In this document: positions 59,435 through 64,000 of the stretch, one piece after another | Layout: each line of letters opens with the position of its first letter | How positions within the stretch are numbered: position 1 is the first letter of the stretch | Source: Dechloromonas aromatica (nom. nud.) | GTDB taxonomy: Bacteria; Pseudomonadota; Gammaproteobacteria; Burkholderiales; Rhodocyclaceae | DNA: 64,000 nucleotides | Reading direction: 5' to 3' | Assembly (NCBI GenBank): GCA_017848965.1 | Contig: JAFIHA010000064.1 | Span: 18,927-82,926, forward strand | The notes under the pieces: generated by a model | Database searches by the model: none | What the model saw: the letters and a program-made list of their open reading frames with translations, nothing else | What the model was told of the DNA's origin: nothing | Made by a program: the position numbers and the translations under genes

Positions 59435-60336
59435 TCGGACTTGGCGCAGAGCGCCCGGCCGGCCCTGGCGCCGTTCGGGCGGTTGATGGTGGCGGCGATC
59501 CATTCGCCGACTGCCGCCAGTTTAGCCAGATTGATGCCGGTGTGTATGCCCAATCCGTCGAGCAGATAGACCACGTCCTCGGTGGCCACGTTGCCGGAGG
59601 CGCCTTTCGCGTAGGGACAGCCGCCCAGCCCGGCGACCGAGGCGTCGAAGACCGCCATGCCGGCCTGCAGTGAAGCGTAGATGTTGGCGATCGCCATGCC
59701 GTAGGTATCGTGATAATGGCCGGCTAGCCTGTCGATCGGCACGACGCGGGCGCAGGCTTCGATCATCCGCACGATCGAAGCCGGATTGCCGACGCCGATG
59801 GTGTCGCCGAGCGACACCTCGTAGCAGCCCATGTCGTAAAGGACTTTCGCCACCTCGGCGGTTTTCTCCGGCGCCACCGCCCCTTCATAAGGGCAACCGA
59901 CGACGCAGGAAACATAGCCACGCACCGGGATTTCCAGCGCCGAAGCGGCGGCAACCACTGGCTCGAAGCGTTTCAGGCTTTCGGCGATTGAGCAGTTGAT
60001 GTTCTTGCGCGAAAAAGCCTCGGACGCGGCGGCGAAGATCGCCACCTCGTCGGCCTGCGCCGTGACGGCACCGTCGAAGCCCTGCAGGTTGGGCGTCAGC
60101 GCGGTGTAGACGACGCCTGGCCGACGCCTGATGCCGGCCAGCACGGCGGCGTTGTCGCCCATCTGCGGCACCCACTTCGGCGAGACGAAGGAAGTCGCTT
60201 CGATCACCGACAACCCGGCCTCGGCCAGGCGTTCGATCAATTCGATCTTGGTTTCGGTCGGGATGACTTGTTTTTCGTTCTGCAATCCGTCGCGCGGGCC
60301 GACTTCGACGATTTTGACGCGAGCAGGGAGAGTCAT
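59431..60336 (-). CDS. mvaB: Hydroxymethylglutaryl-CoA lyase
   Basis: 301 aa. Last step of leucine degradation: HMG-CoA to acetoacetate and acetyl-CoA. TIM barrel with [11 protein letters not shown] at the N-terminus, the catalytic-loop motif [19 protein letters not shown] near the C-terminus (active Cys) and the metal ligands HYHDTYG. Normal length. Its start overlaps the upstream orphan gene (ATGA), its stop the downstream hypothetical (TTGA). Part of the liu cluster with liuC and the carboxylase. Confidence 0.95.
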
Positions 60337-60707
60337 GGATAGATTTCTTCAGTTAGGTAATTCAAACCCTTGAAGCGCAAAGGTACAGGGGATGCGATCC
60401 AAGAGGTGCCGTTGTTGTTTTGCTTAACGTGAAAACAATAAATTCCGTCAGTGTCGTGCGAATTAACGACAAACGGCGGCAGCCAAAATAGCTGGATTCT
60501 TCCATCTCCTTCCCAGCCATGTCCCCGAAATAACGACCTAATTGAGTCGAGATAGTTTTGCGCATCAGGAAAACTGGAAAAAGCTTCGCTGCAAAGTTTC
60601 ATAAAAGCTAGATCGTCCAAATGGTGGAATGAATAGACGTGATAGCGCTGAAAGCTTGATGGTGGAACTGCAAATTGCCCGCCAAATTGCATCAATCTGT
60701 CGTCCAT
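60333..60707 (-). CDS. AT-rich orphan gene inside the leucine cluster
   Basis: 124 aa. Not recognised. Composition is clearly less GC-rich than its neighbours, and codon choice differs (many A/T-ending codons). Aromatic-rich ([20 protein letters not shown]) with several short repeats of polar residues; no signal peptide or transmembrane segment. Its TGA overlaps the mvaB ATG (ATGA), so it is translationally coupled. The 110-bp gap behind it (60708-60817) is also AT-rich and has no other feature. A transferred gene or immunity-like protein is possible, but this is inference. Confidence 0.6.
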
Positions 60708-60817: not shown

Positions 60818-62815
60818 TTAGTCTCCTTCAAACTCCACAAGCGCCGCGCCGTCGCTTACCTGTTCGCCGGCCGCGTAGCAGAAGGCCTTGAGGGTGCCGG
60901 CGGCGGGGGCGGTGATGGTGTGCTCCATCTTCATCGCTTCGAGGATCAAGAGCGGCGTGCCTTTTTCCACCTTCTGGCCGGGTTGGGCGAGCAGGGCGAC
61001 GACCTTGCCGGGCATCGGCGCGGTCAGGCCGCCGCCGTGGCTGTCGCCGGCATCGACGCGGTGCAACGGGTCGTCGCGCAGGAGTGAGTACGTGCTTCCC
61101 TGCAGAAAGACCGTGCGCTTGTCGTCGACCGCGACCACCGAGGCGATCAGTCGGCGGTCGTCGAGTTCGACGGCGAAGCGGTCGCCTTCCAGCTTCTTGC
61201 CGCTGGCAACGGTAGACTCGCCGCAAAGGGCAATTTCCCAGCGCTCGCCGCGATAGCGGACCTGTACGTCGACCAGCGTCTCGCCGTCCATGAAGCTGAT
61301 CGTGCGCGCGGCCGACAGGTTCATGCGCCAGCCGTCGCGTGCGTGCCAGGGCGAGAACGGGTCGCCGCCGGTCTGCGCGGCCTGCTTTGCCGCGTGCTGT
61401 TCCCAGAGCAGTTCGCCGACCGTGGCGACCAGCAGCGCGTCGCGCGGCACCGGCTGGGCGGCGGGGAAGAGGAAATCCTTCTGCCGCTCGATCAGGCCGG
61501 TGTCGAGGTCGGCCTTGGCGAAGGCCGGGCAGGCGACCAGGCGGGAGAGGAAATCGATGTTGGTGGTCAGGCCGGCGACGCGGTAGTCGGCCAAGGCCTT
61601 CCGCATGCGCGCCAGGGCGCCGTCACGGGTTTCGTCCCAGACGATCAGCTTGGCGATCATCGGGTCGTAGAAGGGCGTGATCTCGTCGCCCTCCTCGACG
61701 CCGGTATCGACCCGCACGTTGATCGACTCGGCCGGCGGCACCAGGCGCACCAGCTTGCCGGTGGCGGGCAGGAAGCCCTTGCTGGCGTCCTCGGCGTAGA
61801 TGCGCGCCTCCAGCGCGTGGCCGCGGATTTCCAGTTGTTCCTGCTTCAGCGGCAACGGCTGGCCGGCGGCGACGCGCAACTGCCATTCGACCAGGTCCTG
61901 GCCGGTGATCATCTCGGTAACCGGGTGCTCGACCTGCAGGCGGGTGTTCATCTCCATGAAGAAGAAGCTGCCGTCCTGGTTGGCGATGAACTCGACGGTG
62001 CCGGCGCCAACGTAGCCGACGGCCTTGGCGGCGGCCACCGCCGCTTCGCCCATCTCGCGGCGGCGGGCTTCGCGCATGCCCGGCGCCGGGGCTTCTTCGA
62101 GCACCTTCTGGTGACGGCGCTGCACCGAGCAGTCGCGCTCGAACAGATAGACGCAGTTGCCCAGCGTGTCGGCGAAGACCTGGATTTCGACGTGGCGCGG
62201 CTTGGTGATGTATTTCTCGATCAGCACATGGTCGTCGCCGAAGCTGGACAGCGCCTCGCGCTTGCAGGAAGCCAGCGCGTCCGGGAAATCCTCGGATTTC
62301 TCGACCAGGCGCATGCCTTTGCCACCGCCGCCAGCCGCAGCCTTGATCAGCACCGGGTAGCCGATCTTCTCAGCCTCGGTGTGGAGCAGCGTCGGGCGCT
62401 GGTCGTCGCCGTGGTAACCGGGTGTCAGCGGCACCTTGGCTGTGCCCATCAGCTTCTTGGCTTCCGACTTCGAGCCCATGGCGCGGATCGCCGCGGCCGG
62501 CGGGCCGATGAAAACCAGGCCGGCCTGGGCCAGGGCTTCGGCGAACTCCTCGTTTTCAGAGAGAAAACCGTAGCCCGGATGCACCGCCTGGGCGCCGGTG
62601 CGCTGGCAGGCCTCGATGATCTTGTCGGCGACCAGATAGGACTCGCGCGCCGCCGCCGGCCCGAGCAGCACGGCCTCGTCGGCCAGGCGCACATGGCGGG
62701 CATTGGCGTCGGCCTCGGAATAGACGGCAACGGTACGGATGCCCATGCGGCGGGCGGTCTTGATGACGCGGCAGGCGATTTCTCCGCGATTGGCGATGAG
62801 TATCTTGTTAAACAT
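60818..62815 (-). CDS. liuD: Methylcrotonyl-CoA carboxylase biotin-containing (alpha) subunit
   Basis: 665 aa. Biotin carboxylase domain 1-450 (FNKILIANRGEIACRVIKTARRMG; ATP-grasp with KAAAGGGGKGMRLV; EMNTRLQVEH), a middle region, and a C-terminal biotinyl domain with EAMKMEHTI (biotin Lys). It carboxylates 3-methylcrotonyl-CoA in leucine degradation; the cognate beta subunit is not in the window and should lie beyond the right edge. The chosen start (62813-62815) is preceded by a strange leader: a relic start at 62933 and an inverted repeat covering the first codons. Acetyl/propionyl-CoA carboxylase alpha is an alternative name; the liuC and mvaB context favours methylcrotonyl-CoA. Confidence 0.92.
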   Translation of the reverse strand: MFNKILIANRGEIACRVIKTARRMGIRTVAVYSEADANARHVRLADEAVLLGPAAARESYLVADKIIEACQRTGAQAVHPGYGFLSENEEFAEALAQAGLVFIGPPAAAIRAMGSKSEAKKLMGTAKVPLTPGYHGDDQRPTLLHTEAEKIGYPVLIKAAAGGGGKGMRLVEKSEDFPDALASCKREALSSFGDDHVLIEKYITKPRHVEIQVFADTLGNCVYLFERDCSVQRRHQKVLEEAPAPGMREARRREMGEAAVAAAKAVGYVGAGTVEFIANQDGSFFFMEMNTRLQVEHPVTEMITGQDLVEWQLRVAAGQPLPLKQEQLEIRGHALEARIYAEDASKGFLPATGKLVRLVPPAESINVRVDTGVEEGDEITPFYDPMIAKLIVWDETRDGALARMRKALADYRVAGLTTNIDFLSRLVACPAFAKADLDTGLIERQKDFLFPAAQPVPRDALLVATVGELLWEQHAAKQAAQTGGDPFSPWHARDGWRMNLSAARTISFMDGETLVDVQVRYRGERWEIALCGESTVASGKKLEGDRFAVELDDRRLIASVVAVDDKRTVFLQGSTYSLLRDDPLHRVDAGDSHGGGLTAPMPGKVVALLAQPGQKVEKGTPLLILEAMKMEHTITAPAAGTLKAFCYAAGEQVSDGAALVEFEGD

Positions 62816-62843
62816 GCGTGGTCTCCCGCGGAGAAATCGCCTG
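62772..62843. repeat. 17-bp inverted repeat flanking the carboxylase start
   Basis: CAGGCGATTTCTCCGCG (62772-62788) and its exact inverse CGCGGAGAAATCGCCTG (62827-62843) flank a 38-bp loop that contains the carboxylase start codon. The left arm is coding (codons about 10-15). The mRNA would form a hairpin that can hide the ribosome site. Confidence 0.85.
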
Positions 62844-62933
62844 AGCGTGCTGCGCACGCTGGCAGTTTGACTTCGTCGCTGCGCCGCTGCGCGGCTGGTC
62901 ACCGCGGTTGGCGATCAAAATCTTGGTGAACAT
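62808..62933 (-). CDS. Leader ORF made from a relic carboxylase start
   Basis: 41 codons. It opens ATG-TTC-ACC-AAG-ATT with residues MFTKILIANRG, almost the same as the carboxylase start MFNKILIANRGE, then shifts into unrelated sequence and stops with TAA overlapping the real start region (ATGTTTAA). The ATG is 3 bp after the liuC stop, the usual tight spacing, so this looks like the original start of the carboxylase gene. Whether it is translated is unknown. Confidence 0.5.
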   Translation of the reverse strand: MFTKILIANRGDQPRSGAATKSNCQRAQHAQAISPRETTHV

Positions 62934-62936
62934 CGC

Positions 62937-63725
62937 TTATTCCCCCATCCAGTTGGGCTGACGTTTATCCAAAAAGGCGGAAATACCCTCGCGCGCCTCC
63001 GCCGTCGCCCGCAGATGGGCGATGCGGTGAGCGGTTTCCTCGACCAGCGTGTGGTTGACCGGCTGGTGATCGACGGCGCGGATCAGATCCTTGGCCGCTG
63101 CCTGTGCGTTGGGGCCGCCGGCGAGCAGGGCAGCGACGATCTCGGCGACCTTGTCGTCGAGTGCTTCCGGCTCGGCGACTTCATGCACCAGCCCGATCTC
63201 GCGGGCGCGGGCGGCGGCTATGCGCTCGGCAGTCTGGAAATAGCGCGTCGCCTGGCGGGCGCCGATGGCGCGCAGCACGTAGGGCGAAATCGCCGAGGGA
63301 ATGATGCCGAACTTGACCTCGGAGGTGGCGAACACGGCCTTGGTCGAGGCCACGGCGATGTCGCAGGCCGACGCCAGCCCCATGCCGCCACCGAGCGCGG
63401 CGCCTTGCACGCGGGCGATGGTCGGCTTCTTCATCTCGGCCAGCGTGCGCAGCATGCCGGCCAGGGCGCGGGCATCGTTGAGGTTGTCGTCGATGCCGTT
63501 GTTGGCGGCGCGGCGCATCCAGTTGAGGTCGGCGCCGGCCGAGAAGCTTTTTCCTCTCCCTGCCAGAACGACGACGCGGATGTCGGCGTCCTGGTCGAGG
63601 GCGATGCAGGCAGCGGTCAGTTCGGCGATCAGGGTTTCGTCGAAGGCGTTATGCAGGTCGGGCCGGTTCATCCAGATCGTGGCGACCGGGCCGGCGAGTT
63701 CGATTTCCAGGGCTTGGAAGGGCAT
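62937..63725 (-). CDS. liuC: Methylglutaconyl-CoA hydratase (enoyl-CoA hydratase family)
   Basis: 262 aa crotonase fold. The oxyanion-hole motif GRGKSFSAGADLNWMRRA and the catalytic GAALGGGMGLASACDIAVA are present, and the FATSEVKFGIIPSAISPYVL stretch matches LiuC-type methylglutaconyl-CoA hydratases. It hydrates 3-methylglutaconyl-CoA to HMG-CoA, the step between the carboxylase and MvaB. The ATG at 63723-63725 follows AGGAGA. It lies upstream of the carboxylase in the same operon. Confidence 0.9.
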   Translation of the reverse strand: MPFQALEIELAGPVATIWMNRPDLHNAFDETLIAELTAACIALDQDADIRVVVLAGRGKSFSAGADLNWMRRAANNGIDDNLNDARALAGMLRTLAEMKKPTIARVQGAALGGGMGLASACDIAVASTKAVFATSEVKFGIIPSAISPYVLRAIGARQATRYFQTAERIAAARAREIGLVHEVAEPEALDDKVAEIVAALLAGGPNAQAAAKDLIRAVDHQPVNHTLVEETAHRIAHLRATAEAREGISAFLDKRQPNWMGE

Positions 63726-63873: not shown

Positions 63874-64000
63874 TCAAAGACCGAGTGCAACATTTGGAAT
63901 CATCCCTGCTTTGTCCATGAAGATGTTATCGAAGAACACCTCGGCGGGAGAGCGCCATCCCAGGGTTTTTCTCGGCCGCATATTGAGTTCCCAGGCGATG
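63874..64000 (-). mobile_element. IS30-family transposase, C-terminal fragment (gene continues past the edge)
   Basis: The last 41 codons are visible. LNMRPRKTLGWRSPAEVFF is the conserved C-terminal motif of the IS30 DDE transposases, followed by DNIFMDKAG and a TGA (63874-63876). The rest of the element lies outside. It stands upstream of liuC and may separate the visible leucine-degradation genes from their promoter and from the carboxylase beta subunit. Confidence 0.9.

Follow-up and report, generated by a model that had tools for sequence, protein, structure and literature searches.

The junction between liuC and liuD in the stretch of Dechloromonas aromatica DNA analysed here (64,000 nucleotides, referred to below as the window) carries one member of a recurring family of RNA cassettes at carboxylase gene starts, as recognised by sequence comparison. 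Its position is behind codon 11 in a biotin-carboxylase gene, whose first ~35 nt are thereby doubled into an upstream copy A and a downstream copy B. The two copies enclose a core of ~83 nt, which contains three small hairpins and contributes one arm to a fourth; this fourth hairpin is completed by codons 10-15 of the gene itself and spans the gene's ribosome-binding site and start. From its kept frame, its covariation and modelled RNA folding, we consider it probable that the cassette acts in cis as a translational-coupling leader, by which carboxylase output would be tied to translation of the leader, and, as part of the same reading, that it has been recurrently gained and lost.

A doubled gene start between liuC and liuD

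On the minus strand, an ATG at 62933 lies 3 nt past the stop codon of liuC (TAA, 62939-62937) and opens a frame of 41 codons with the translation MFTKILIANRGDQPRSGAATKSNCQRAQHAQAISPRETTHV, whose stop falls inside the actual liuD start, ATGTTTAA, at 62815 (Table 1). This arrangement, described in an initial annotation of the region, was confirmed in the sequence. The two copies of the gene start are 118 nt apart, as the annotation had said, and identical at 28 of 35 bases; its count of about 7 differences in the first 32 bases was slightly too high, since we found 6 within 32 and 7 within 35. A perfect 17-bp inverted repeat, with 38 nt between its arms and the liuD start in the loop, had also been described correctly, and it pairs liuD codons 10-15 with the end of the leader. 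Folding of the 166-nt RNA yields -66.4 kcal/mol, whereas dinucleotide shuffles average -52.0 kcal/mol (sd 4.1), which gives a z of -3.5; of 200 shuffles, 1 did as well.

The liuC product matches NCBIfam models of the crotonase/enoyl-CoA hydratase group, the best being gamma-carboxygeranoyl-CoA hydratase with a score under its cut-off. Elsewhere in the window, two other minus-strand frames were observed. A frame of 124 codons at 60333-60707 separates liuD from a downstream HMG-CoA lyase-like gene (named by eye) and, to our knowledge, is not part of the usual liu order. Another, at 63874-64000, runs off the end of the window, where the contig also ends, and resembles what we take to be the C-terminus of an IS30-type transposase.

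Table 1. Features of the liuC-liuD junction, in window coordinates
Feature	Position	Strand	Basis or remark
liuC-type enoyl-CoA hydratase gene, directly upstream	62937..63725	-	start codon deduced from frame
Leader ORF, 41 codons + stop	62808..62933	-	TAA 62810-62808 overlaps liuD start ATGTTTAA
Copy A of gene start, 35 nt	62899..62933	-	ancestral liuD start; 18 empty relatives
Hairpin 1, 5-bp stem, GCA loop	62883..62895	-	GCCGC/GCGGC exchanged with GTCCC/GGGAC in relatives
Hairpin M, GAC-GAA-GTC	62869..62877	-	covaries GAC/GTC, AGC/GCT, GGC/GCC between genera
Hairpin 2, 6-bp stem, GCA loop	62845..62859	-	covariation
Hairpin 3 left arm, within leader ORF end	62827..62843	-	covaries with gene codons 10-15
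liuD Shine-Dalgarno-like GGAG, loop side of hairpin 3	62823..62826	-	sequence
Copy B of gene start, 35 nt, present liuD start	62781..62815	-	sequence comparison
Hairpin 3 right arm, liuD codons 10-15	62772..62788	-	inverted repeat, covariation
liuD, biotin-carboxylase-type alpha subunit of acyl-CoA carboxylase, 665 aa	60818..62815	-	ORF and NCBIfam

The upstream copy marks the ancestral start

A junction search found the whole liuC-liuD junction, insert included, at liuD in at least 12 of the 76 genomes of the genus; many other genus genomes, among the matches listed, align in two pieces with the insert absent. The allele alignment comprised the 12 filled alleles and 18 empty ones, 30 of the 76 genomes. 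The 18 empty alleles have their liuD start where copy A stands, at the same short distance from liuC. Because the empty alleles begin there, copy A lies at the ancestral start and copy B is the one displaced by 118 nt, which reverses the annotation's view of copy A as a relic start. The annotation had also raised the possibility that relatives share the leader: the filled genomes do, and the 18 aligned empty ones do not. An assembly error, its other caveat, is unlikely, as the same anatomy recurs in other genomes. The distance between copy A and codon 16 is exactly 166 nt in all 12 filled alleles, and all 12 keep the 41-codon frame with its stop on the liuD start, the stop being TGA instead of TAA in one of them (L014).

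A second biotin-carboxylase-like start, 85% like that of liuD, was seen in the same genome as the window (G000:C10:29365-29473), and the covariance-model search of the genus gave no strong cassette match there. In four genomes (G033:C27, G036:C1, G055:C22 and G020:C141) the end of liuC and the start of liuD lie ~0.8-1.1 kb apart among the matches listed, and other sequence may stand between them.

The cassette recurs at biotin-carboxylase genes

A covariance model (R1) was built from the 12 filled genus alleles. Counting only matches at E ~1e-17 or better, strong copies occur in 15 of the 76 genus genomes, 12 at liuD and 3 at accC (L046 being the one of these three above the NCBIfam accC cut-off), and in 87 of 395 genomes of the family; looser tallies at E 0.001, 71 of 76 and 359 of 395, include short matches to plain carboxylase starts. 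Among 399 genomes drawn from the order, 27 had an R1 copy (E 1e-12), 5 of them belonging to the window's own family, and the single carrier among 369 genomes drawn from the class was the window's own genome. A 21-nt core pattern searched in named genomes gave 45 loci, 43 with the cassette and 2 chance matches. Carriers include Thauera, Azonexus, Dechloromonas hankyongensis, Propionivibrio, Methyloversatilis, Zoogloea, Variovorax, Rhizobacter, Pseudogulbenkiania, Silvimonas, Hydrogenophilales and Pseudomonas seleniipraecipitans, among others; the last is, going by its title, the sole case recognised outside Burkholderiales-type groups.

For comparison we assembled 146 distinct units from 91 of 98 and 62 of 68 matches, omitting matches that were cut off, inner tandem copies and one repeat. 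Of the named loci 26 of 45 were used; the 19 omitted were 2 without the element and others mostly presumed to be duplicates. Depending on the test, the results below rest on 134, 135, 140 or 141 units whose start B is clean. A unit consists, in this order, of copy A, a core that begins at CCAG and holds the three small hairpins (1, M and 2) followed by the left arm of hairpin 3, a ribosome-binding site, and copy B. Lengths of 166 nt (69 units), 169 nt (42) and 163 nt (14), hence steps of 3, account for 125 of the 146.

A frame with an ANRGE start directly follows 141 of the 146 units, and of the five others one is of pyruvate-carboxylase type (L194, whose host gene reads ANRSE) and the rest are in the wrong register, in tandem or at a contig end. 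NCBIfam scans of nine host genes, that of the window among them, all hit biotin-carboxylase models, with pyruvate carboxylase as the best match for L194. Where readable, the host genes are thus biotin carboxylases of the liuD, pccA, accC and pyruvate-carboxylase types, and the gene tails upstream of the cassettes resemble liuC, pccB or accB as recognised by eye (a crude classifier placed all but 33 of the 146 upstream genes, and its counts were not used). A core-only model, lacking both the start and the arm, matched 62 times, in 49 of 249 family genomes. Every one of the 62 falls on a place already detected by R1 at a carboxylase start, a few of them being cut by contig ends, and no cassette core was found away from carboxylase starts in these 249 genomes.

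Cassettes also occur in tandem, as pairs and one run of four among the family genomes, and a scan of the starts showed 7 units with a second copy upstream. In the run of four (G224:C1:3385635-3386154), the units stand at 118-nt spacing before one carboxylase gene, and the gene-adjacent unit scores best. Tandem cassettes are likewise present in P. seleniipraecipitans (L123) and Silvimonas terrae (L133), whose carboxylases start MFETVLIANRGEIAVRA or MFKTVLIANRGEIACRA.

Gain, loss and possible mobility

A pattern of this kind could also be produced by a mobile, in effect selfish, hairpin element with site-specific insertion behind codon 11, each entry doubling the start of the target, and the overlap of stop and start would then be no more than an accommodation by which the host gene survives; we regard this explanation as rather unlikely, and several observations are in its favor. 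The cassette is scattered on trees of the liuC and liuD flanks, which cover 30 of the 76 genus loci, with 8 and 10 changes, respectively, where shuffling gives 9.7 on average; values as low came up in 96 and 375 of the 500 shuffles. A single clade of carriers is rejected on the liuC flank, a rejection that recombination can inflate. Several types of gene are hit, and copy A of L194 bears the unusual start of its own pyruvate-carboxylase-type gene, MIKSILVANRS, at 31 of 35 bases. More generally, 125 of 135 units have a copy A that is nearer to its own B than other Bs are on average, matching it at 27.8 of 32 bases compared with 25.3 when permuted (maximum 25.7). In some units the direct repeat extends further, to 51 nt in L084, that is 16 nt beyond the ATG and through the ribosome-binding site, and to 10 nt beyond the ATG in L210. 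The tandem copies would suit a mobile element as well, as would G255, where the cores at two different genes are nearest neighbours.

Other results argue against it. The core was seen only at carboxylase starts, in the named genomes as in the family search, and in 11 of 12 same-genome cassette pairs, G255 being the exception, the partner core is not the nearest. These two results led us to reject promiscuous transposition. Plasmid carriage was set aside as well, the window's 141-nt stretch having no plasmid match. A mobile element would also leave the kept pairing with the host gene unexplained, and the resemblance of A to its own B can arise from conversion between close repeats too: either the start was duplicated at entry, or the close repeats keep converting each other.

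For the coupling leader that we favor, entry into a new gene seems rare, because same-genome partner cores are so seldom nearest. Much of the cassette's movement may be recombination between orthologues, and the cassette may pass between orthologous genes by ordinary recombination. As direct repeats flank it, clean deletion or tandem amplification is possible; a crossover joining A to B would leave the gene in its plain form again.

RNA structure and covariation with the host gene

In the 12 genus alleles, 98.2% of the cells in the proposed helices are paired and 6 of 28 pairs changed on both sides. Two broader alignments gave similar results, namely 51 non-accC-type units (set A5, from 64 clean 166-nt units) with 96.8% of cells paired and two-sided changes in 15 of 31 pairs, and 32 accC-type units (set A6, from 40 clean 169-nt units) with 97.3% and 18 of 32. 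None of 500 shuffles was as good in any of the three sets, and slid controls of the two larger ones reached 28-49%. The paired percentages of A5 and A6 lean upwards, because their units were chosen by eye for alignable cores; a further set, A7, held 38 chosen units. The 17-bp hairpin 3 tracks synonymous changes inside the carboxylase gene. Consistent with this, its arm scored 14.1 with its own gene and 11.2 with differing targets of the same class, and was higher with its own gene in 123 of 135 units.

In the helices G.U cells were far more frequent than A.C cells, 88 versus 19 overall and 46 versus 7 for changes in the leader arm alone, where these are counts of cells and not of independent events; in hairpins 1, M and 2 the excess is small (19 versus 8). 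As G.U exceeds A.C, the structure points to sense-strand RNA. This bears on the idea that the covariation is mutational, a product of quasi-palindrome correction and not of selection on RNA. The helices are short-range, and template switching in bacteria can perfect imperfect inverted repeats. Template switching would not favor G.U over A.C, however, and it leaves the kept frame and stop unexplained, so that we consider this explanation very unlikely.

Many loops of hairpins 1, M and 2 are C-GNA-G triloops. Such triloops are unusually stable in single-stranded DNA as well, and these three hairpins may have a role at the DNA level.

The leader frame and its stop

In 127 of 141 clean units the stop codon of the leader lies at +5 or +8 relative to start B, and the overlapping stop is absent from the other 14; as a control, copy A read in the same way has such a stop in 53 of 141. 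Codon 2 is TTT in 115 of 135 copies B versus 52 of 135 copies A, in keeping with the overlapping stop, which requires TTT. Start B is an ATG (130) or a GTG (11) in 141 of the 146 units, and a GGAG, GAGG or AGGA stands at -18 to -5 of copy B in 129 of 141 units, while such a core precedes copy A in 73 of 141.

The sequence of the peptide appears to be free. Over leader codons 12-39, pN/pS is 0.90, compared with 0.87 and 0.88 in the other frames, and in the same codons no conserved regulatory codons or stalling peptide were found. Since these codons show no amino-acid constraint, the leader peptide is not the product, and a functional leader peptide was rejected for want of constraint past the copied start. 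The 3 leaders scanned had no Pfam or NCBIfam match. Copy A compared with its own copy B gives a pN/pS of 0.09, which is not evidence for a working peptide because it may be a legacy of A's former role as the start of the gene.

Two further explanations are extremely unlikely. The initial annotation had read the region as the scar of a recombination that replaced liuD by a divergent carboxylase copy, an event unique to this lineage; the window's two starts do differ at 7 of 35 bases, yet a one-off scar is ruled out by the recurrence of the same cassette in 146 distinct units across genomes, at several carboxylase genes of the order, with copy A at the ancestral position, and no divergent donor is needed in each case because the core recurs and copy A follows its own B. 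As little credence is due to a programmed +1 frameshift at GTT-TAA/TGA that would fuse the leader to the carboxylase and give an N-terminally extended enzyme: prfB is a known case of slippage at a slow stop, the carboxylase lies in the +1 frame and valine (GTT) precedes the stop in most listed units, but this GTT is forced by the overlap with ATGTT, and a frameshift would need neither the start codon of copy B nor its ribosome-binding core.

Predicted effect on translation

In folding models, the mean predicted cost of opening the region from -20 to +15 is 11.6 kcal/mol for start A and 20.5 kcal/mol for start B, B being the more costly in 132 of 140 units; the 18 empty alleles have a predicted cost of 10.6 kcal/mol. 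When the arm of hairpin 3 was held open, the predicted cost for B was 13.6 kcal/mol, lower in 137 of 140 units. A control mask on an equal stretch further upstream left it at 20.6 kcal/mol, with no change, and shuffling the letters of the arm reduced it to 16.3 kcal/mol. According to these models, the cost of opening start B would thus be nearly double that of start A, and most of the excess would vanish once a ribosome occupies the leader. Judged by the pairing probability of the Shine-Dalgarno hexamer alone, blocking the arm produced no opening (0.37 to 0.34, with 59 of 134 units more open), so that simple sequestration of the hexamer has no support from its pairing, and the models support closure of the whole initiation region instead.

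Taken together, the kept frame, the covariation and the folding support the suggestion, made in the initial annotation, of a leader ORF and hairpin that could control translation, and the coupling leader that we consider probable could work as follows. Ribosomes would start at copy A using the native ribosome-binding site, translate the 41-codon leader, and in doing so melt the three small hairpins together with the left arm of hairpin 3; they would then stop at ATGTTTAA, over start B, and reinitiate there. When the leader is untranslated, hairpin 3 would hold start B shut. If hairpin 3 keeps B closed in this way, carboxylase output would therefore follow translation of the leader, and perhaps also that of the upstream gene. 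Reading through the RNA would be what matters, and the peptide seems not to. The cassette is not essential, given its scattered presence and the 308 of 395 family genomes without a strong copy.

Relation to known systems

A known riboswitch or Rfam family was rejected, as Rfam 15 gave for the window stretch two matches, with E values of 0.54 and 0.78 and scores well short of gathering, and no match at E 0.1 for 12 loci. We recognised no description of the cassette among the open PMC papers listed in the literature search, subscription papers lying outside its scope; the accessible part of PMC3711429 is unrelated to it.

The leader of E. coli iraD, as presented in the part of PMC5574718 available to us, combines uORF-coupled translation with a sequestered ribosome-binding site. 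The cassette shares with it a short ORF whose stop overlaps the downstream start, an RNA structure over the ribosome-binding site and the expected coupling, a likeness that covers the layout and not CsrA or any other regulator. Compared with the same part of that account, the cassette differs in that its leader opens with a duplicate of the regulated gene's start, that its closing arm is the gene's own codons 10-15, and that it recurs at paralogous genes over an order and can be tandem. Termination-reinitiation at overlapping gene pairs, to go by the available portion of PMC6728339, is similar insofar as stop and start overlap and coupling is expected. The overlap in the cassette is ATGTTTAA or ATGTTTGA and not the ATGA or TGATG of those pairs, and its upstream frame is a leader free of amino-acid constraint and not a gene.

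Small hairpin-rich elements, some of them inside genes, are known among bacterial MITEs and the Rickettsia palindromic elements (PMC2229807, accessible sections). The cassette resembles them in its size class (~100-200 bp), in its hairpins and, for some of them, in having an open frame. Unlike the elements in those sections, it is confined to one gene family and lacks dispersed copies (none at unrelated sites, with all 62 core-only matches at R1 places), its repeats of 35-51 nt include the gene start, and it stands behind its own copy of the start and is not fused in frame. Only tentatively, and with some doubt about so broad a claim, we raise the possibility of a new kind of element, half regulator and half mobile: a cassette of one gene family that would duplicate the host start, fold on host codons and take over translation of the biotin carboxylase, and that would move between paralogues and orthologues, amplify in tandem and excise cleanly.

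Implications for carboxylase regulation

Biotin-dependent carboxylases start fatty-acid synthesis and run the breakdown of leucine and propionate. The cassette would account for short ORFs and uncertain start assignments at carboxylase genes, and its empty, single and tandem alleles in close relatives would offer a natural system for the gain, loss and multiplication of a regulatory module. If the proposed coupling is true, it would amount to an unrecognised layer of control, in which translation of carboxylases is made conditional across the paralogous genes of an order.
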